Position numbers and translations under genes: made by a program. 33,118 nucleotides of DNA, taken from Anaerolineales bacterium. Its GTDB lineage: Bacteria; Chloroflexota; Anaerolineae; Anaerolineales; E44-bin32. The notes beneath the pieces were generated by a model. The model saw only the letters and a program-made list of their open reading frames with translations, was not told the DNA's origin and did not search any database. The stretch is taken from NCBI GenBank assembly GCA_037382465.1, contig JARRPX010000028.1, forward strand, positions 1 through 33,118, given 5' to 3'. Numbering within the stretch: position 1 is the first letter of the stretch; every line of letters starts with the position of its first letter. Positions 7,071-18,381 of this stretch are shown in pieces.

Positions 7071-10000
7071 ATGGAAAACAACGCCAAGATGAGAACGTGG
7101 CGGCGCCACATCTGGTGGATCCTGGCTGTAGCCAGCCTGGTCACCCTTGCCTTGTGGCTGCGTCCTTCGGGCGGATTCGTCCCGCAGTGGGATGCGATAT
7201 TAATTGGCGCAGCTTTTTCAGCCTTCCTTGCGAATTTTCCTATCCCTGTCGGTCGGGTGCGGATCAATTTTACCCACGCCATCGGCCTGACCTTGGGAGT
7301 CGCACTCGGACCCGGCGCAGCCGGATTGGCGATCTTGATTGGATTGGCGATCGGGGAATCAGTTCGTTTCGTTCGTGAGTTCTTTCAGTTGAACAAATCG
7401 TTCGATTTCTGGCGAGGTTTCAAGTCCTGGACGCTCAGCCTCAGCCGGCAACTGTTAAGCATCTCCGGCGGATTAACCGTATTCCTGCTGCTGGGAGGCA
7501 GCCCGCTCGTTGTAACCCATCAATCACCATCGATTATCGCCAGCGTCGGATTGGGGGTAGCATTTACGACACTGTTCATCTCCCTGCATTGGCTCGATCA
7601 CCTTCTCTCTGATTCTCCAAAAGCCTTGATCCACGAATTCCCCATCCCGTTCCTCGTGGCGTTAATTCCCGTACCTTTCGGCGTCATCAACGCCGCAGCA
7701 TACATCATGCTCGGTTTCCAGACATTGATCATCTACGGTGCCATCGTTTCGTTGTTTTCACTCGTCGTCAGCCGGTTGGTCGTTGCCGACCGCGATATCA
7801 AGCGCAGGATACAAGAGATTTCGACCATCAGCAGAATCAGCCAGGCCATGCGCTCCAGCCTCGACCTGGAAGACCTGCTGACGACGATCTACACACAGGT
7901 ATCCCAACTGTTACAAGTGAATAATTTCTACGTCGCGCTCCACGATACCGTCGAAAACCTGATCACCTATCCACTGGCAATTCGAAACGGTGAAAAACAG
8001 GTATGGCACGACCGGAATTTCATGGACCGCCTCACCGACCGGGTCATTCTCCAGGGTACGCCGATCCTCATCACCCATGATGCATCCCAAGCCTTACGCT
8101 CAATGGGACTCCCAGAAATTGAAAACGCGCCCGAAGCATGGCTCGGTGTACCCCTCGTGAGTCCAGAACGAACGATCGGCTGTCTGGCTGTGTTTCACAC
8201 CGATGCACAAAAATCATTCGAAAACCACGACCTCGACATTTTAACGACTCTGAGCGGTCAAGCTGCCGTTGCCATCGAGAATGCCCTGCTCTACGAGCAG
8301 ACGCGGAATCGAGCTCAGGCGCTGGCTTCATTAAACGAGATCACCGCCTCGATGAGCTCCACGCTCGATCCCGAACGCGCCCTCGAACTGGTCAGCCAAT
8401 CGATCATTCGCGTCAGCGGAGGTGAGAAGTCCGCCATCTTCCTCTTCGAGAAAGATCTGGGAGAGTTATTTCTGGCACACGGGCTCAATCTCACTGACGG
8501 CTTTATGAAAGCGTGGATGACCATCCCTATGGAAGAAGAAGAGCGCATTCAAGCCTTCATCCACGAGCGTCCGATCCTGGTTGCAGACGTTGACGAATCG
8601 GAACTTTCGGAGCCGATAAAAACGCAATTGAAAGAAGAGGGGATTCGAGCCTTCGCAGATTTCCCCTTGATTACGCCGTCCGGCACGATCGGACAGCTCT
8701 CGGTGTATTTCGCAGAGACGGAAAGTCTTCAGGAAGATCAGATCGATTTATTAAAGACTTTCGCCGCCCAGGCGGCTTTAGCCGTGGCCAACGCTCGTGC
8801 ACATGCAGCGACGGATCTCGCCCTGCGCAAACAAGTCGACCAATTGGCCACACTGGAAACGATCGGCCTCGAGATGAACGCCACCCTCGACACCAAAGAA
8901 CTTTTCGAAGCCATCTTGAAGCATGCGCTCCGCATTACCAACGCATCCCAGGGGAATCTTTCCATCTTCGATCCCGAGCAGCGCGCGCTGCGGATCGTTG
9001 CCCAGCGCTCCTACCCGGATGCACCGCGCAACGAAGAATCCATCTTCGACATCAACGATGGCGCACCGGGTGTCGCCTACCGGACAGGAAAAATCTGCAA
9101 CGTCGCAGACGCGTCTTCTGATCCGAATTACAGCAATTGGATAGACGATCGTACGCACAGCTTGCTCAGCGTACCGATAACTCGTCAGGACAGCGTTCTT
9201 GGCGTAATCACGGTAGAGAATACGAAACCTTCCGCGTTCAATCAAGAGCATGAAAAATTCCTCGGTCAACTCGCCGCGCAAGCCGCCGTCGCCATCACCA
9301 ACGCAAGACTTTATCAACAACTGGAAACGAGATTTCACGAGCAATCATTGCTCTTCACCGCAAGCACGCACATCGCCTCCACGCTTGACAGCGATGCAAT
9401 TGCACTCGCCATCGCGGAGAGCGTCAGCATCGCCTTGGAGAGTGATGGCGCAAAAGTCTCGCGGTGGGACCCCGACCAGGGCACGCTCTCGCTCCAGGCC
9501 GGCATCTGGAACGGGACACCCGAGAAGTCCGCTTCGGTCACCATTCAGGCAGGTGATGTCGAAGCCATCGAGACCGCCATGCGGGAATCTACAACTGTTC
9601 AGTGGACGCTGAAGGACGCGCCGAGTCCGGCAGCAAAAGTGTATCTATCTGCTTTTCATGGAGCAGCAAGTATCTTGATCGTTCCCATCATCGCCGGGGA
9701 TCAGACTCTGGGCACGATCGAAGTCTTCTCTGCCAAGGAACGTCTGTACGTCGAAAATACGATCCGCACCGCGCAGACGATCGCCAGTCAGGCCGCGATC
9801 GCCCTCGAGAATGCGGAATTATTCCGCCGCATCCGCGAGAGTCACAATCGCCTCTTGGCAATCCTGAACTCCACGAGAGAATCGATGTTGATGATCGACC
9901 CGCAAGGACGAATCATCCTCGCCAATACCCAATTCGCAGCACAGGCAGGTCTACCCATCGAGCAGTTGATTGGAAAAAACCTGACCGGCGCAGAATTCGA

Positions 10001-10904
10001 CATGACCAAAACGCTCGGATTCAGCCGCGAGGAGCTGCAAGATTTCATCTCTCGGCTGCAGCACGGCGATGCCGACCGGGAAAAAGCCACCGTTTTCGAA
10101 GGCGTAAAATCTCCGCGGCGCACTTTTCAACGATCGATCACACCCGTCCGGGACGCAATCGGTCTTCTGATCGGCTCGCTGCTCGTCTTCAGAGACGTCA
10201 CCGAAGAGCAGGAATTGGAAGAAGCGCGCAAGCAATTGACGGAGATGATCGTCCATGATTTGCGCGGCCCCCTGACGGCGATCCTCGGCAGCCTTAAACT
10301 GCTCGAAGAAACCATTCCGGCGAAATCTCCTTCTCCCGTCGCCAGCCAGGCGATCACCGTCTCCCACCGCAGCGTTCAGCAAATGCTCGATCTGGTCAAT
10401 TCCCTCTTGGACATCGCCAAACTCGAATCCGATGAAATCGATCTCTCCGTTGAAAGTATCTCGATCAAGCAGTTGTGTGAAGAGATGGTGGAAACCTACG
10501 TTCACGAAGCCAACGACGCGGGAATCATCCTCGACTGTACTTGCGCCAAGCGGCTGTCGAAAATATCCGTCGACAAGGAAAAAATACGACGCGTGATCGG
10601 TAACCTGCTCGATAATGCGCTGCGCTTCACGCCAGCAGGCGGTCGTGTCGATTTGACCACACAGAAATCGGATGGGGGAATCCTCATTCAAGTGATCGAC
10701 ACCGGACCCGGCGTGCCCAGAGAATTTCGGGAACGCATTTTCGAACGATTCGGTCAGGTGCCGGGGTTAGACGGCAAGCGCCGCGGGACCGGTTTGGGAC
10801 TCGCTTTTGCACGTCTGGCCGTCGACGCGCATGGGGGCAGGATATGGGTGGATGAGAATCCGGATGGCGGAAGCATCTTCTACGTCTTCCTGCCATATTG
10901 CTGA
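7071..10904 (+). CDS. multi-GAF membrane sensor histidine kinase
   Basis: The 1277-residue protein has an N-terminal membrane domain of about seven to eight helices (residues 10-240), then four successive GAF domains, each preceded by the usual connecting helix (for example AAVAIENALLYEQTRN and AAVAITNARLYQQLE), a PAS domain (about 930-1050, starting LLAILNSTRESMLMID), HisKA with phosphoacceptor H1062 in VHDLRGPLTAI, and HATPase_c with N box (NLLDNALRF), G1 (DTGPGVP) and G2 (GTGLGLAFA). All kinase motifs are intact. It should autophosphorylate in response to several small-molecule or redox inputs. No response regulator is adjacent, so its partner lies elsewhere. AGGG precedes the ATG. It is convergent with recJ with only 15 bases between stop codons and no terminator, so the transcripts probably overlap. 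Confidence 0.95.
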   Translation: MENNAKMRTWRRHIWWILAVASLVTLALWLRPSGGFVPQWDAILIGAAFSAFLANFPIPVGRVRINFTHAIGLTLGVALGPGAAGLAILIGLAIGESVRFVREFFQLNKSFDFWRGFKSWTLSLSRQLLSISGGLTVFLLLGGSPLVVTHQSPSIIASVGLGVAFTTLFISLHWLDHLLSDSPKALIHEFPIPFLVALIPVPFGVINAAAYIMLGFQTLIIYGAIVSLFSLVVSRLVVADRDIKRRIQEISTISRISQAMRSSLDLEDLLTTIYTQVSQLLQVNNFYVALHDTVENLITYPLAIRNGEKQVWHDRNFMDRLTDRVILQGTPILITHDASQALRSMGLPEIENAPEAWLGVPLVSPERTIGCLAVFHTDAQKSFENHDLDILTTLSGQAAVAIENALLYEQTRNRAQALASLNEITASMSSTLDPERALELVSQSIIRVSGGEKSAIFLFEKDLGELFLAHGLNLTDGFMKAWMTIPMEEEERIQAFIHERPILVADVDESELSEPIKTQLKEEGIRAFADFPLITPSGTIGQLSVYFAETESLQEDQIDLLKTFAAQAALAVANARAHAATDLALRKQVDQLATLETIGLEMNATLDTKELFEAILKHALRITNASQGNLSIFDPEQRALRIVAQRSYPDAPRNEESIFDINDGAPGVAYRTGKICNVADASSDPNYSNWIDDRTHSLLSVPITRQDSVLGVITVENTKPSAFNQEHEKFLGQLAAQAAVAITNARLYQQLETRFHEQSLLFTASTHIASTLDSDAIALAIAESVSIALESDGAKVSRWDPDQGTLSLQAGIWNGTPEKSASVTIQAGDVEAIETAMRESTTVQWTLKDAPSPAAKVYLSAFHGAASILIVPIIAGDQTLGTIEVFSAKERLYVENTIRTAQTIASQAAIALENAELFRRIRESHNRLLAILNSTRESMLMIDPQGRIILANTQFAAQAGLPIEQLIGKNLTGAEFDMTKTLGFSREELQDFISRLQHGDADREKATVFEGVKSPRRTFQRSITPVRDAIGLLIGSLLVFRDVTEEQELEEARKQLTEMIVHDLRGPLTAILGSLKLLEETIPAKSPSPVASQAITVSHRSVQQMLDLVNSLLDIAKLESDEIDLSVESISIKQLCEEMVETYVHEANDAGIILDCTCAKRLSKISVDKEKIRRVIGNLLDNALRFTPAGGRVDLTTQKSDGGILIQVIDTGPGVPREFRERIFERFGQVPGLDGKRRGTGLGLAFARLAVDAHGGRIWVDENPDGGSIFYVFLPYC

Positions 10905-10919
10905 ACCCTGCAAGATGTA

Positions 10920-13223
10920 TTAATTATCGAACAATCGCTCCGGAGCACAGGTTTTATAGAACCTGCGGAAAGCCGCTGTCTCTTCAAGCAGTGCCTGCAG
11001 TTCGGCGAATAACCTTCCTGCAATGTCCTGATTGCCTTCACCTGAACCCCGGATCACGGTCAATTCATCCAATTCGGATTCGCCGATATCCAGATCGCCG
11101 CGGGCGATCAACCAGGCGATTCCCTTATGGACGGTAAATTCTCGCTGCGCCGTCGCGGCGGCCAATTTCCAGATGTCGATCCTGCCCCCCTTTTTTCGCA
11201 GCGCGAATTTAACCATCCCTGTCAGCGTTTTTATAAACGTTTCGAGGTCGTCATCCGTGCGGCCGGAAAACAAATAAACCACCCGAGGTGATACAGCTTG
11301 CACGGTTTGATGCAGTTCTTCCAGACCCGCAGGCGGCGTCCAAATGGCCAATTTCTCTGCCGGAGATAATTCATAGCGCGAGCGTTCTTCCGGGGCCTGG
11401 TTCGAATTTCCCTCACACCAAATCTGCACGCCGGCGCGCTGCAGTTCCTTGATCCTCTCAAGCGGCCTCACCTCCCGGCGAAAGTCGACGTACTCGAGAC
11501 GGCGCGGCCTCCTTTCGAAAGCCGGTTCTTCCACCTCGAGTCTACGGGCGTCGACCCAGGTAAGCTGCACCTCCCTTTGTCCGCGATACTCCGTCTCACG
11601 CAGATGGTAGGCCATGTCAAAAGCGCCCTGGGGGATGTCTTCCGCCGCTCCGCCCCACCAGATGACTCGCCGGGTTTCACCCTGGCTATCACCCACAACG
11701 AGCGAAAGATGTTCCCTCGCTCGACCGATCTGCTTCTTTTCCAGAATGCGAATTTCCTTCGACGCCAAGACGAGCTGCGGATTCCCGGGACCAAACGGCG
11801 CGAGACGCTCCAGGTCGCCTGCGAATTCCAGAGTGAGTTCCTTCAATTCTGCGTAAGCGTCGACAACGACCTGCGGCCGGGTATCGATTTCGCGCATGTA
11901 TTCCGCAACGGTCTCACCCAACTGCTGGCGAAATGCGCCGATGCGGTCCGCCTCGATCGCCAGTCCGGCCGCCATCGGATGTCCCCCGAAACTCTCCAGC
12001 ATCGACTTGTGGCTGGCAATCGCCGCAGAGATGTCTACCCCTTCGATCGAACGAGCGGAACCACGGGCAGACCCATCGTCCTGGATGGACAGAACCAACG
12101 CCGGCCGATGGTAGTGTTCCACGAGACTGCTGGCCACGATGCCGACCACGCCCGTCGGCCAATATTCGTGCGCCACGACCAGCGCCGCGTGATCGAGCAG
12201 CGACGGATCGGCTTCGATTTGCGCCATGGCGGCCTGGGTGACTTGATCGCAGAGCAGACGGCGGCGCGCGTTCAGTCCCTCCAACTCCGTGGCGTAGATC
12301 TTCGCCTTTTTCTCGTCCGTCGTGGTCAAAAAATCGACGATGCTGTTCGCATCCGAGAGACGGCCGAGTGCGTTAAGACGCGGGGCAAGTATGAATCCGA
12401 TCTGCTCCTCGGTGACGTTCTCAGGTGGGACGCCGGCAACTTCCATGAGTGCGCGTAGACTCAAACGCGGTGCATTGCGTATACGATCGAGACCGCGCTG
12501 CAGCAGGTAGCGCACGTCTCCGTACAACAAAGCCAGATCCGCCACGATGCCCAGTGCAACCAGATCGAGCGTGCCCTGTATCCGCTCCGAACCGGGATCC
12601 AGCGCTTCGATCAGTTTGTATGCCACGCCGACACCGGGCAGGTTGCGTAAGGGATGGTCTTCCGCGAGCATCTTGGGATTGACGATCGCCGCGGCATCCG
12701 GTAACTTTTCCGGCAAATCATGGTGGTCCGTGACAATCACATCCACGCCGCAGGAATTTGCATAATCTACGGCTGCCTGCGCCGAGATCCCGGTGTCACA
12801 GGTGAGCAGCAGGGAGATTCCCTGTTCGATGACGTACTCCAGGGAAGGAACGTGAACGCCGTGGGATTCGTTTTGCCGAACAGGGATGTAGTGGGAGACC
12901 TCGGCGCCCATATCACGCAAAGCTTCGACGAGCACGGTGGTCGCCGTCTGGCCGTCGACGTCAAAATCCCCCCAAACACAGATCGCCTCCCCTGCGTCGA
13001 TTGCCGCTCGCACCCGCAGAACCGCGTCGCTCAGATTCGGGATTTCATCTGCGGCCGCCGGCCGGTAAAAAGCAGAGTCGAGAAAAGCGCGCGCCGCTTC
13101 GACGCTATGGATGCCGCGTCGCTGTAAGGTGGCCGAAACCAGGGGATGCCCGCCGATCGCAGCCTGCAGCGGCTCATCGACGTCGTACTTTTCAGGTTCG
13201 ATCCATTCGGCGTCCCGGGACAT
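10920..13223 (-). CDS. recJ: single-stranded-DNA-specific 5'-3' exonuclease RecJ
   Basis: The 767-residue protein contains the DHH phosphoesterase core: motif I as DFDVDGQTATT (about 86-96), CDTG (142-145), motif III as TDHHD (165-169), and a DHHA1 domain with GGHPMAAGLAIE, followed by an OB-like region. The family degrades ssDNA 5' to 3' using Mn/Mg in recombination and mismatch or base-excision repair. It is longer than E. coli RecJ (577 residues). The last 200 or so residues form an extension rich in charged helices, perhaps a winged-helix or partner-binding domain. It is the last gene of the four-gene repair operon, and its ATG overlaps the nuclease stop (TGATG). Motif I has V-D-G-Q where E. 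coli RecJ has A-D-G-A, a conservative variation. Confidence 0.95.
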   Translation of the reverse strand: MSRDAEWIEPEKYDVDEPLQAAIGGHPLVSATLQRRGIHSVEAARAFLDSAFYRPAAADEIPNLSDAVLRVRAAIDAGEAICVWGDFDVDGQTATTVLVEALRDMGAEVSHYIPVRQNESHGVHVPSLEYVIEQGISLLLTCDTGISAQAAVDYANSCGVDVIVTDHHDLPEKLPDAAAIVNPKMLAEDHPLRNLPGVGVAYKLIEALDPGSERIQGTLDLVALGIVADLALLYGDVRYLLQRGLDRIRNAPRLSLRALMEVAGVPPENVTEEQIGFILAPRLNALGRLSDANSIVDFLTTTDEKKAKIYATELEGLNARRRLLCDQVTQAAMAQIEADPSLLDHAALVVAHEYWPTGVVGIVASSLVEHYHRPALVLSIQDDGSARGSARSIEGVDISAAIASHKSMLESFGGHPMAAGLAIEADRIGAFRQQLGETVAEYMREIDTRPQVVVDAYAELKELTLEFAGDLERLAPFGPGNPQLVLASKEIRILEKKQIGRAREHLSLVVGDSQGETRRVIWWGGAAEDIPQGAFDMAYHLRETEYRGQREVQLTWVDARRLEVEEPAFERRPRRLEYVDFRREVRPLERIKELQRAGVQIWCEGNSNQAPEERSRYELSPAEKLAIWTPPAGLEELHQTVQAVSPRVVYLFSGRTDDDLETFIKTLTGMVKFALRKKGGRIDIWKLAAATAQREFTVHKGIAWLIARGDLDIGESELDELTVIRGSGEGNQDIAGRLFAELQALLEETAAFRRFYKTCAPERLFDN

Positions 13224-14044
13224 CAGAATTCGATTTCCGCGATCTGATCGAAGTCGAAGTCCATCTCAACCTCCACCTCTGCGTCTTCGTTCCAGGCCTG
13301 GTAATCACCTGCACTCGTGCCGCGCCGGCACAGGGAGCGATATGGGCAATACGTGCAATGAACGGCCTCGGTCGTACGCTCGAAGTCTTCCTCCCCGAGC
13401 CGTTCAATCTCTTCCACCAGCGCAGTCAGCGTTTGCTCATCGGACCGGCATTGGGCTTCCGAATAGCCGAAACGATGAGGCTCCTGTGGAAAATCCGAAA
13501 ACCAGTAAATCATCTCGATCTGTTCGGGGAGAATCCGCTCGCCGAACCCCACATCCTGCGCCGTTTGCGTAAGTAGAAACGGATACACCTTGGACTGCAG
13601 ACGGTCGGCAAGGGATTGCGGAGCGGGATGGCGCCGGCTTGTCTTCCAATCCACAATCACCGCCCTTTCGCCGGGGTTGATGGCGAGCAGATCGAATTTC
13701 GCCTCGATCCGCTGTCCGGCCAGCGGCGTACTGACCAGAACTTCCGCCCAGCGCAGATCGGGTAAATCCGCGACGGGATAGTGCAGATAATTTTCCCACC
13801 ACCTGGCCAGATCACCGCTCGCTTGCGCTCGTAGAATCCCTTCGGGTATACCCAGAATATGCTGCTGGATCATGCGATGGAACGAATTCCCCAGCCGCAG
13901 AAATCGTTCGCGTTCCGCTTCAGACTCGGTCACGGCTGCCGGCCAGGCAAGATGTTGAACATAGCGCAACTGAAATCTGCGGCGGCAGTCTACGTAATCC
14001 TGCAGGCTGGATTGGCTGTATACAAAATCATCCGGCAGCTTCAT
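13223..14044 (-). CDS. stand-alone RecB/AddB-type Fe-S PD-(D/E)XK nuclease
   Basis: The 273-residue protein is a compact RecB-family nuclease domain. H56 (GNSFHRM), D118 (KFDLL), D132-x-K134 (VDWKTS) and the QxxxY motif (Q150/Y154) give a complete active site. C20 together with C230, C233 and C239 (CTYCPYRSLC) form the four-cysteine iron-sulfur staple known from AddB and Cas4. In AddAB this domain is fused to the C-terminus of AddB; here it is a separate gene. It overlaps the helicase gene upstream by 17 bases and recJ downstream by 1 base, so it is very probably part of the same complex. Cas4 was considered, but there is no CRISPR context and the helicase neighbours favour a repair role. Confidence 0.93.
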   Translation of the reverse strand: MKLPDDFVYSQSSLQDYVDCRRRFQLRYVQHLAWPAAVTESEAERERFLRLGNSFHRMIQQHILGIPEGILRAQASGDLARWWENYLHYPVADLPDLRWAEVLVSTPLAGQRIEAKFDLLAINPGERAVIVDWKTSRRHPAPQSLADRLQSKVYPFLLTQTAQDVGFGERILPEQIEMIYWFSDFPQEPHRFGYSEAQCRSDEQTLTALVEEIERLGEEDFERTTEAVHCTYCPYRSLCRRGTSAGDYQAWNEDAEVEVEMDFDFDQIAEIEF

Positions 14045-16268
14045 CGTGTTCCGACTCCCAGTAGGATTGCAGCGCGATGAAAGGCGCCGCTTGCTGCTGA
14101 TCTCCTCGCCGTCCGGTATTCCAGGTCATCACCAGTTCTTTCTTTGCCCGTGTGATGCCGACATAAAGCAATCGCAGCCGTTCGGATACATAATCGAGGC
14201 GCGCAACGCTGGTTGCGGCGCCTTCCGCGTACTCGAAACCGGCTTCCATTTCCACGAGGGCCGAAAGCTGTGCCAACGCTTCCGCGTCCAGGTTAAGCGA
14301 ATCCCGCACGAACCATTTCTCCGCAATGTACTGATCGTGCGCCAAACCGGAGGGAAAATCGTAGTTGTTCACCGAAGCTAAATAAACCCGATCCCATTCC
14401 AGGCCTTTCGCTTTGTGCACCGTCGCCACAACGACCTTGCCCCTGTGCTTATCCGGATCGAAGCCCAGATCTTCCGCACTGAATCCGATGAACCTTCTCT
14501 CGTTCTTGGCAATCACACTGAGTTCATTGCTGAGTGCACCGAGATCCCAATCCAGATTAACCTCCTGCGCTCGACGCAGGATGGACGCGAGCTTGTACGC
14601 CAGAGCCAAATCTTCGGCCTCGCGGAAGAGGTCCTGGGATAAAGTGAGAATCAACTGATCGATGGGCAGCAGCGCTGCCCTGTGCCAGCGTTGGTCGACT
14701 ACCCGAAAGGCGTCCAGGACATCGACCACCTCCGGCGCCTCGGACGCTTTTTGTCCCTCCAGCCAATCCATCTCCGTGCGAGGCCAGAGAAACGCTTCCG
14801 TATCGCCACATTTCCGCAGCAATTGCGCTCCACGCTGCATGACTTCGCTGCGTTTCGGATCCTGACGCGCCTCGCGATCCCATACTTGATACGCTTTGGC
14901 GAGATCCCGGGCGGAGATCGGATCGTGCAGATGCTTGAGGACAAGCGTCAGTGCGCCGGCGGTCTCCCGGGTCGAGCGAGAACTTCTCAGAATCTCGATG
15001 TAAGGAATACCACGTTCCTTCAACTCGCCCACGATCTGAAAACCGCGATTGTTCGTCGGCACGAGGACGGCAACCGTCTGATCTGCGTTATCTGGCAGCC
15101 AATCCGAGAGTGATTTCCCGATCGCCGTGACTTCCTCCGCAGGTGTGTACGCCAGGTCGACGAGTCGGATCCCGTCCGGTCGATCCGCCGGATTGGGCTG
15201 TGGATCGCCAGTCGGCGTCGGCTCGATGTACGGTAAGGTGAGCGCCCCGCGTACTTCATCCCGCGGATGTTCGTACATCGTCCAATCGATAAGATAGTTG
15301 GCCAACGAAAGAATACTGAGCGTGGAACGGCCTGAATTGGGAAGCTCACGCGCCTGAACATCCGCCTCGGCCAGGAAATCACGCAGGTACTGCGGGCTGG
15401 CCGTCGTGAACGTCTCGAATATAGCTTGATTCGGGTCGCCCACCCGCACCCAGTTGCCCTCAGGACCGACCAGTTTTCGCAGGATCTGCTCCTGCAGGCG
15501 GCTGCTGTCCTGCGCTTCGTCTTCGAGTACGTACGGCCAGCGTTCGCGCAGACGCTCCAGATAACCCGAATCCGCCCGCAGCGCTCGCAGCGCCATGACG
15601 ATCAAATCATCGAAATCGACGCCACCGCGGTAGTGAAGTGCCTGCTGATAGTCTGCAAAAATATCACTGCCCATCTTCAGAAGCGGATAGGGCAGCTTCA
15701 GGCGTTTCAACTTCACCTGAAGTTGAGCAGGAGATATCTGTATATCCTTTGCCGTGCGAATGAAGTTGGTCGCCAGCCCGATGACCAGGTCCGGCCACCT
15801 GTACCTGCGAACGTTTTCGATTCGATTCGCATCGACATCCGGATGTAGGAAATCATCCAGCAATTCCGCATGACCCTGCAGCCACACCTCGCAAGCCCCG
15901 CGGATGATCTGATCGCGGGCGCGATCGTCCACGATTTGAAACGTCTCCGAAAGACCGGCGAGTTCGGGTCGTTCGCGCACGATGTCGTGAGCGAGCCCGT
16001 GCAGCGTACGAATGCGGTAGCCGATCCTCGGCATCAGACCTCGGTCCATCATGAAAGCGGCCACGCGATGCGCAAAGTGATCGACCGCGGAATTGACGAG
16101 TGTCACCACGAGGACCTCTTGCTCCCCGCGAACCGCGCCGGTCGAAATCAATTCCGCAGCCAGGCATGAAAGCGTATGCGTCTTGCCGCTGCCGGGCACG
16201 GCAGACACACCCATGCGTCCCTGGCGATACTGCAGCACTTCCACCTGCTTCGGTCGCGGTTTAAACAT
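14028..16268 (-). CDS. UvrD/Rep-family (AddA/PcrA-like) DNA helicase
   Basis: The protein has 746 residues with all superfamily 1A motifs: Q motif region (PRPKQVEVLQY), Walker A (PGSGKT, K29), Walker B (LEDEAQDSS), motif III (VGDPNQAIFETF), motif V (VATVHKAKGLEWDRV) and motif VI (LYVGITRAKKEL). It lacks a C-terminal PD-(D/E)XK nuclease domain, so it corresponds to the motor part of AddA or to a UvrD-like helicase. The frame is open to 16364, but the ATG at 16268 overlaps the upstream stop by 8 bases (ATGTTTAA) and gives the standard N-terminus. The role expected is ATP-driven unwinding of duplex DNA, working with the ATPase upstream and the nuclease downstream. Confidence 0.95.
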   Translation of the reverse strand: MFKPRPKQVEVLQYRQGRMGVSAVPGSGKTHTLSCLAAELISTGAVRGEQEVLVVTLVNSAVDHFAHRVAAFMMDRGLMPRIGYRIRTLHGLAHDIVRERPELAGLSETFQIVDDRARDQIIRGACEVWLQGHAELLDDFLHPDVDANRIENVRRYRWPDLVIGLATNFIRTAKDIQISPAQLQVKLKRLKLPYPLLKMGSDIFADYQQALHYRGGVDFDDLIVMALRALRADSGYLERLRERWPYVLEDEAQDSSRLQEQILRKLVGPEGNWVRVGDPNQAIFETFTTASPQYLRDFLAEADVQARELPNSGRSTLSILSLANYLIDWTMYEHPRDEVRGALTLPYIEPTPTGDPQPNPADRPDGIRLVDLAYTPAEEVTAIGKSLSDWLPDNADQTVAVLVPTNNRGFQIVGELKERGIPYIEILRSSRSTRETAGALTLVLKHLHDPISARDLAKAYQVWDREARQDPKRSEVMQRGAQLLRKCGDTEAFLWPRTEMDWLEGQKASEAPEVVDVLDAFRVVDQRWHRAALLPIDQLILTLSQDLFREAEDLALAYKLASILRRAQEVNLDWDLGALSNELSVIAKNERRFIGFSAEDLGFDPDKHRGKVVVATVHKAKGLEWDRVYLASVNNYDFPSGLAHDQYIAEKWFVRDSLNLDAEALAQLSALVEMEAGFEYAEGAATSVARLDYVSERLRLLYVGITRAKKELVMTWNTGRRGDQQQAAPFIALQSYWESEHDEAAG

Positions 16269-18381
16269 GCTCGATTCTCCCGCTTCCGGAATTGGCAAGG
16301 AAGACAGCTTGCAGCGCACGCAGCAACGGGCCGCGTTGATCCAAACCATCTTCTCCCAGGTCACTCAGGCCGAGATAGATGCCTTTGCGACAGCGGTGAA
16401 CGAGACCCTGCGTCAGTACGTTGAGGGTGTCCTGCCGGGCGGCATATTCTTCATCGTCGCTCCATAAATTGCCCCGGATCCAATTGCGGCTGAGAACGTA
16501 CGGATGGGTGAGCGGCTGGTACAGGCGCTCCCACCAAGCCGGACTGCCGATTTCGAGCCAGATTTGATAATCCACGGCCCGATTCGACATGAGGAATGTG
16601 TATGCCGGCGCCAGCAGCACGGCATCTTGTGGCTGCTGCTCCCAGTCTCGAAGGTAATGCGATGCCAGGACGCCGTCCCGAACCATGGCGAGATACAATT
16701 CGCCCGTCGATCGCGGTTGCGAGAACGATTCATGCTCGAGCACCCAGCGGAACTTCTGAACGGATTCGATCAGGTTGTTTGCTACCCCACCAGCACCGTA
16801 ATCACCCCAGAAGTGATATCCCGGTTGCGAGAGCAGTTCACCGAAAATACGCCGGAAGAAATGATCGAGCTCGAGTGTGAGGCCTGATTTGTAAGCCTCC
16901 AGCCAGGTTCGCATCCCTTCGTACTGCTGGCCAAACTTGAACGTGATCCTGCGCTGCATCTCGCCCTGTACCTGCTCGAAGGGTTCGAAGGTCGGAACAC
17001 CGTCCTTCGAACGGTAAAGCACCTTGGTGAGCAAATTAGCGCGGATCAGATCGATGTCTTCGATCACGATCAGTAATGCACGCGTGACCTCGAATGCCGT
17101 AGGGATTATCTTCCATTGCGGGTGGGCAAGCGCAGCCAGCGTAAGCAGACACTGCGCAGCAGGTTCGTCCCTTAATGCACGCGAAGGGCGATGCGAGCGG
17201 GCGGGAATTTTCTTGTGGGTGAGATTTTCCGTGAGCGAAAAACGCAGCGCGTCCCCCATGAACGGCGCCAATACGACGATCTGATCCGGTTGCACGCTGG
17301 GATCACCAAGCAGCTTTGATATCACATCCGCTGCCCACTCCAGCATCTGGGGATGGTACCGCTGGTATTCGATGTGCACGTTTCCAAAGGATGGACCCTC
17401 GAGTTCGGACGAACGACCGAGCAGTTGTCGTTCTAGATGGGATGCGAAAACCTTCATGTCCTGCGACACTTCAAGGGAGTCGCTGAAGGTTGCTTGTTCG
17501 TCTGTGAGTTCTCTAAACCGGTGCGCACTCCGGGGGTCTGCGCCCAGGAAACGCCGGTAACCTCCTGCATCGTCGTAGATCATGAGCGCCGACTTGAAAT
17601 TCGGAAGCCACGCCTGGAGAATATCGTGGCACACGGGCACGTCCTCTTCGAGATTGTCGGCTATGAGATGTCGATAGCGTTCTTGAACGTACTTTTGAAA
17701 CACAGGATGCGGCCAAAGATGCTCGTTGAAGACCTGTATCTGTAAGGAATAATCCAGCAAATTTCGCTCGAGGCACGCGGCGCGGAATCGAGTGGCACAA
17801 GCCTGGGCCTGGTCGTAGATGACGGCTTGCTGCGCTTCTCCGACCCAGGCCTCACGCAGCCTGTTTCCAATTTCAGCGAGATCAAATCCTACGACGGCGG
17901 ATTTATTCATGTTGTCGATGATCTGACTGAGGATACGATTGCGCGGAATCGAGACGCTCTCGAAATACCGCTCGCCGTCGATGAGCGGGCCAATGGCGTG
18001 CGTCATGTAATACTGGGTGGTTTCCAGGGTCAGGAACAACGGGGGTTGATGTGGGTTGAGGAATCCGGCTTCTTCGGCGATCAACGGCCAAAACAGGTCG
18101 ACCATCCGTCGTGCGAAACCCCCGAGGGTAACGATCGTGACTTCGCCCCCTGCCCTACGTTCCGGGCGGGAAACAAGGCTGCGATAAGGCTCCGCCAGCG
18201 TACGCTGGGGGACGAGGACGAAGATCGAATCCGCGCGAATCCCGGTTTCCAGGAGATGAGAAACCCGTGCGACGCCGCTCGTGGTTTTCCCCGTTCCGGA
18301 AATGCCTTCCAGGAACACCGAACCGGATGCCGGTCTTTCGACGATACGTTGCTGATTGGCGGATAATGATTCAGGCAGCAT
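16261..18381 (-). CDS. AddB-like superfamily 1 helicase/ATPase without nuclease domain
   Basis: The 706-residue protein starts with a Q-motif-like LSANQQRIV and an intact Walker A (EGISGTGKTTSG, K32). The Walker B position reads LIADNLEED instead of the usual DExQD. The C-terminal half keeps helicase-like motifs (TFLMSNRAVDYQIWLEIG, and a motif VI-like HRCRKGIYLGLSDLGEDG). The overall architecture matches AddB/RecC-type helicase-like subunits, but the C-terminal Fe-S nuclease of AddB is absent and found two genes downstream instead. It is the first gene of the repair operon. ATP binding looks likely; true helicase activity is uncertain because of the unusual motif II. Broad assignment good, exact family tentative. 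Confidence 0.82.
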   Translation of the reverse strand: MLPESLSANQQRIVERPASGSVFLEGISGTGKTTSGVARVSHLLETGIRADSIFVLVPQRTLAEPYRSLVSRPERRAGGEVTIVTLGGFARRMVDLFWPLIAEEAGFLNPHQPPLFLTLETTQYYMTHAIGPLIDGERYFESVSIPRNRILSQIIDNMNKSAVVGFDLAEIGNRLREAWVGEAQQAVIYDQAQACATRFRAACLERNLLDYSLQIQVFNEHLWPHPVFQKYVQERYRHLIADNLEEDVPVCHDILQAWLPNFKSALMIYDDAGGYRRFLGADPRSAHRFRELTDEQATFSDSLEVSQDMKVFASHLERQLLGRSSELEGPSFGNVHIEYQRYHPQMLEWAADVISKLLGDPSVQPDQIVVLAPFMGDALRFSLTENLTHKKIPARSHRPSRALRDEPAAQCLLTLAALAHPQWKIIPTAFEVTRALLIVIEDIDLIRANLLTKVLYRSKDGVPTFEPFEQVQGEMQRRITFKFGQQYEGMRTWLEAYKSGLTLELDHFFRRIFGELLSQPGYHFWGDYGAGGVANNLIESVQKFRWVLEHESFSQPRSTGELYLAMVRDGVLASHYLRDWEQQPQDAVLLAPAYTFLMSNRAVDYQIWLEIGSPAWWERLYQPLTHPYVLSRNWIRGNLWSDDEEYAARQDTLNVLTQGLVHRCRKGIYLGLSDLGEDGLDQRGPLLRALQAVFLANSGSGRIEHV

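Follow-up and report, generated by a model that had tools for sequence, protein, structure and literature searches.

A conserved four-gene unit of the Anaerolineae comprising two UvrD-type helicases, one degenerate and one intact, together with RecJ and a separate Fe-S nuclease

Most bacteria begin the recombinational repair of broken DNA either with RecBCD, AddAB or AdnAB, in which the nuclease is fused to the motors, or with a separate RecJ and helicases. In the window analysed here, i.e., the whole stretch of 33,118 nucleotides that constitutes contig 28 in a genome of 3.73 Mb (126 contigs, 95% complete) with relatives among the Anaerolineae (Chloroflexota), four minus-strand open reading frames (18381-10920) code in the order 1-2-3-4 for a degenerate helicase (N), a helicase (H), a nuclease (X) and RecJ (J), and the question arises whether they form one repair module and how such a module compares with the known machines. 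The four overlapping genes of the original prediction are all present as reading frames where it had placed them on the minus strand. As a raw reading frame gene 2 extends from 16364 to 14028 (778 aa); since its homologues begin at Met33 of this frame, its start is likely base 16268 instead of 16364, and with this correction the overlaps amount to 8 nt (N/H), 17 nt (H/X) and 1 nt (X/J). Convergent with recJ lies a plus-strand gene (7071-10904) for a protein of 1277 aa that was read by eye as a membrane multi-GAF/PAS histidine kinase.

Gene 1 (16261-18381, minus strand like all features described below) codes for a protein of 706 aa with a UvrD fold in degenerate form and no nuclease domain. 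Its Walker A motif (residues 26-34; 18280-18306) is retained, K32 being conserved in 73 and G31 in all 74 homologues, and so is the arginine of motif VI. Motif II reads DNLEED (residues 242-247; 17641-17658), and its alignment to DEFQD of UvrD places an asparagine at the position of the catalytic glutamate. This altered Walker B motif, which had been recognised from the outset, is a feature of the family and not a sequencing error, because within D242-N243-x-E245-E246 the asparagine recurs in 73/74 and both glutamates in 74/74 homologues. In addition, the position of the motif-III glutamine is occupied by glycine in every one of the 74 homologues, and in the region of motif V the usual residues are not retained. 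Given this combination of an unaltered Walker A motif and motif-VI arginine with changes in the Walker B glutamate, motif III and motif V, N is likely to be a dead helicase that would bind ATP without hydrolysing it.

With respect to its affinities, N matches the Pfam UvrD-helicase family weakly (27.5 bits, E = 3e-6) and ADDB_N with 12 bits, i.e., under the cut-off. An AlphaFold2 model built from the 74 homologues (pLDDT 92, pTM 0.90) has the full SF1A/UvrD-type fold. Fold comparisons with VIA gave the top Z scores, about 30, to UvrD/PcrA chains, yet at an rmsd of about 10; 619 residues could be superposed on the helicase part of AdnB with an rmsd of 4.7 Å (VIA, Foldseek), and 612 residues on AddB 2-698 with an rmsd of 6.5 Å (VIA Z about 22). 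By profile alignment, N is nearest to UvrD and to UvrD-nuclease (AdnB-like) fusions, and hhalign found no real alignment to the AddB proteins of four genomes, which, together with the low ADDB_N score, rules out N as a member of the AddB family by sequence. The 'AddB-like' subunit without nuclease of the original prediction therefore stands as regards its fold and the missing nuclease, but not as regards its sequence, and AdnB superposes equally well; the term suits the probable role and the fold of N, not its nearest descent. A solitary distant relative of gene 1 (19% identity, 91% coverage) resides on a plasmid of Ilyobacter polytropus (L128:7983-9956).

Gene 2 (14028-16268) codes for a UvrD-type SF1A helicase in which every motif examined is intact and conserved (47/47). 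In Pfam it comprises the UvrD N- and C-terminal domains only, so that the nuclease of AddA is missing as predicted, and its scores against AddA profiles are far under the cut-offs. Gene 3 (13223-14044; 273 aa) codes for a PD-(D/E)XK nuclease (PDDEXK_1, PF12705; 101.9 bits, cut-off 22) that stands alone, in agreement with the original description. The complete active site and the four cysteines characterise it as a PF12705 Fe-S nuclease, with C20, C230, C233, C239, H56, E101, D118, K134 and Q150 being invariant in 37/37 sequences. Its nearest relatives by profile alignment are the nuclease domains of UvrD-nuclease (AdnB-like) fusions, followed by AddB nucleases, and not AddA. An assignment to Cas4 (TIGR00372) was rejected, as 23.6 bits were scored against a curated cut-off of 65.

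Past its last Fe-S cysteine, X continues with a variable acidic linker and ends in the conserved motif [DE]QIAEI[EAS][FY]-COOH, which reads QIAEIEF-COOH in the window (13226-13249). Amongst the 37 sequences, E(-4) is conserved in 33, I(-3) in 32 and F/Y(-1) in 31. No conserved C-terminal end was found in N, H or J, which were searched as well, and tail-like ends are rare elsewhere (8 of 4792 other open reading frames). The C-terminus of E. coli SSB is DFDDDIPF, and by its sequence the tail of X resembles this C-terminal tip; the presence of an SSB-tail-like peptide on X is a new observation. At one locus (L091:16155-18122) a protein that by eye looks like a HerA-type ATPase is encoded between genes 1 and 2 and has an SSB-tail-like C-terminus of its own, DEIPF.

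Gene 4 (10920-13223; 767 aa) codes for a RecJ with full catalytic motifs, as evident from its Pfam domains (DHH/DHHA1/RecJ_OB), a TIGR00644 score of 496 bits (cut-off 396.9) and catalytic residues conserved in 22/22 sequences. Its core matches the structure of S. aureus RecJ with a VIA Z of 40 in an alignment reaching to residue ~564. The C-terminal ~200 residues (~564-767; 10923-11534) are well modelled and consist of an alpha/beta part and a winged-helix-like part. This extension, to which attention had been drawn, is thus present but not unusual, since the RecJ proteins of S. aureus and D. radiodurans have comparable lengths of 757 and 705 aa, respectively. It has no match among PDB sequences, and PF10141 matches it weakly in 2/22 sequences. 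The idea of a new domain was rejected; the extension probably derives by divergence from the C-terminal domain that RecJ ordinarily has, which in D. radiodurans binds SSB-Ct via the last Phe of that tail (PMC4846377). A second RecJ of the same genome (G000:C2:73057-74652, L027; a frame of 575 aa) is without the long C-terminal domain. Judged by their motifs, H, X and J all look active.

The gene order, when surveyed, proved to be conserved as 1-2-3-4 on one strand at more than 25 Anaerolineae loci, many of which have overlaps of 0-24 nt or gaps of a few bases, and as it is kept across dozens of loci the module is not a product of chance. A sample of 301 genomes from the phylum gave strong matches to N and to H in exactly the same 31, all belonging to one class. 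X is found in 29 of these 31 genomes, two being without it, and the C-terminal domain of J in 25, neither having a strong match in the other sampled genomes; these co-occurrence counts are uncorrected for phylogeny, nearly all cases falling into one class. Since six of the 31 genomes are without a detectable J domain, J could either be expendable or have diverged beyond detection. In 61 close relatives, N, H and X were found 19, 19 and 18 times, respectively. Fusions between any of the four genes were not seen in the loci examined, and inserted genes were ruled out as extra subunits, being diverse and mostly single occurrences. Some genomes retain the genes in dispersed form; in G036, the genome of which is a single contig, they are distributed between 2.72 and 3.60 Mb (about 0.87 Mb), with all of them retained. 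Beyond the phylum, all four genes occur in the same order on the plasmid pSR56 of Salinibacter ruber M8 (NC_014028.1, 56.5 kb; L127:10001-17884), where genes 1 to 3 are 40-44% identical with key residues and tail intact, and where gene 1 is annotated as a hypothetical protein. Decay or assembly error is seen in two genomes: in G013 (L023, C13) gene 1 is a fragment of 90 residues only, and in G014 (L021, C20) genes 1 and 2 are frame-broken.

The tail of X and the C-terminal domain of J vary together. In the 29 genomes with X, both are present in 24 and both absent in five, with no discordant case when variant ends are counted; of the 24 tail-positive genomes, two have variant ends (DVEY, LIDW), and in eight the tail was scored because the profile match extended as far as the last column. 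The association has a Fisher p of 8e-6, or of 5e-5 with LIDW excluded, both uncorrected for shared ancestry. The five genomes without J domain in which X ends without the motif are G154, G345, G338, G201 and G232. Because G154 differs in this respect from its genus-mate G122, and G338 from its family-mate G095, the pattern suggests that tail and domain were repeatedly lost together, even if the J domain of tail-less genomes may have been overlooked through divergence or an assembly gap. The tail might also bind another SSB-Ct receptor, e.g., RecO or RecQ. A host SSB tail was sought in the loci examined, and no SSB was found there.

The sequences themselves show the genes and their motifs, how these are conserved and co-occur, that the unit exists in a second phylum, and that the tail covaries with the RecJ domain; from this we infer, with somewhat more confidence than doubt, that the four genes form one module which processes DNA ends for recombination, i.e., a split analogue of AdnAB/AddAB joined by RecJ. 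In the complex so envisaged, H would act as a 3'-5' motor, X would cleave the unwound strand, and J would degrade the 5'-ended strand and leave a 3' tail. The SSB-tail-like peptide of X would dock in the C-terminal domain of J, at the place where D. radiodurans RecJ holds SSB-Ct, and by this docking the two nucleases would travel together. The opposite-polarity resection originally proposed would then have a possible physical basis in the conserved tail of X. If true, a split yet linked unit of this kind would connect the repair pathways having fused nucleases with those having a separate RecJ and would help to explain how the Anaerolineae repair broken DNA, and the SSB-like tail provides a cheap and sharp handle on the physical link between X and J.

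That N and H co-occur perfectly and X nearly so, with the J domain in 25/31 genomes, would also agree with a core made up of only H, N and X, i.e., a split enzyme of the AdnAB/AddAB kind next to which RecJ would be an operon neighbour working separately through SSB. In line with this, J is often the unlinked gene, and H followed by X corresponds to the domain order of the AdnB-like fusions, whose nuclease is the nearest relative of X. However, the tail tracks the J domain (24 present, 5 absent, 0 discordant) and pSR56 holds all four genes together, so that we consider RecJ rather unlikely to be a mere neighbour.

No earlier description of the module was found in the literature (open-licence PubMed Central papers), and its likeness to known systems is partial in each case. 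The mycobacterial AdnAB pairs two UvrD-fold subunits; N has the UvrD fold and H is a UvrD helicase, and the two may be associated in a similar manner; the helicase part of AdnB is amongst the best superpositions of N, and X is closest to the nuclease domains of AdnB-like UvrD-nuclease fusions. However, AdnA and AdnB both hold their nucleases in cis, whereas N and H are without any, one nuclease has a gene of its own and RecJ is linked. With Bacillus AddAB and with RecBCD the module shares a dead SF1 helicase partnering an active one, the helicase-like domain of AddB being such a dead partner (PMC4824097), as well as an Fe-S nuclease of the RecB family. In contrast to these, the nuclease is not fused, and N, in which Walker A is intact and the arginine of motif VI is present, has no hhalign match to AddB. 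The combination of dead SF1 fold and Fe-S nuclease in one chain typical of AddB is absent, as N stops before the nuclease, which is encoded separately, and H has no C-terminal RecB-type nuclease following its UvrD helicase as AddA has. As the nucleases are not in cis as they are in AddAB and AdnAB, the module was filed as a member of neither.

In its action the module would appear to be nearest to the UvrD-RecJ route of D. radiodurans, in which a 3'-5' UvrD and RecJ have been proposed to resect ends, giving 3' tails for RecFOR (PMC2806897), and in which the C-terminal domain of RecJ binds an acidic, Phe-ended tail. There, however, the tail is on SSB and no gene unit has been described, whereas here the genes form a unit, the tail is on the nuclease and a dead helicase is added. 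The resemblance of the X tail to SSB-Ct, together with the action of E. coli RecJ at gaps (PMC1193525), could also point to stalled forks or single-strand gaps instead of double-strand ends as the site of action, with the tail displacing SSB from RecJ or recruiting X to other SSB-Ct receptors; as the counterparts of N and X are components of enzymes that process ends, we regard this as distinctly improbable.

Processing of DNA ends by the four-gene module does not imply that it takes the place of AddAB. In the genome under study, neither AddAB nor RecBCD was found, and its UvrD-type proteins number three only. In relatives, however, a separate AddAB does exist, canonical AddAB being seen in G036 and G045, and of the 45 genomes in which the unit occurs, at least 10 also hold a long AddA-type helicase (about 1000 aa or more). 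What the original prediction had named as contrary evidence is thus encountered among relatives, though not in this genome. The replacement of AddAB that had been supposed is therefore not supported in its strict form, and the module is not simply the only end-processing enzyme of the cell. Presence of the unit and of AddA-type helicases is statistically independent (Fisher p 0.6 and 1.0), which also rules out replacement by mutual exclusion, and related members of the class exist that have neither.

With regard to the history of the unit, the trees of the genes agree in broad outline and put Salinibacter and a contig of Fraserbacteria (L056, possibly misbinned) among the Anaerolineae, albeit on long branches with weak support. 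A bolder reading, which we put forward as tentative, would see in the four proteins one resection machine assembled from separate genes (a dead and a live helicase, RecJ and the Fe-S nuclease). RecJ would be held by the nuclease through its imitation of an SSB tail, both strands would be cut within one particle by nucleases of different families, and the whole would have passed between phyla in the form of a cassette.

The plasmid location of the Salinibacter unit beside XRE and SocA-like genes, the match of H to GajB profiles and the occurrence of UvrD-Cas4-like fusions in defence loci (PMC5704561) might indicate an anti-phage or anti-plasmid system of helicase and nucleases comparable to Gabija or to such fusions, but this is highly improbable in view of the near-core distribution in one class (31/38 sampled genomes), the broadly congruent gene trees, the housekeeping neighbour argS within the window, the lack of phage or viral-contig relatives among the matches, by which a phage origin is also ruled out, and the generic SF1 nature of the GajB matches. 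Among the matches listed for the four proteins, the GajB helicase of Gabija is included and GajA is not. Unfused operons of UvrD and a Cas4-like nuclease in Clostridiales, for which a DNA repair context has been suggested (PMC5704561), resemble the module in having UvrD beside a separate pfam12705 nuclease but have been described with neither a dead helicase partner nor RecJ. Finally, upstream of gene 1 in genome G232 (L126:10635-11411), a long stretch within a reading frame consists of GGTAVGGTAVGG and SVGISVQVGSGV repeats.
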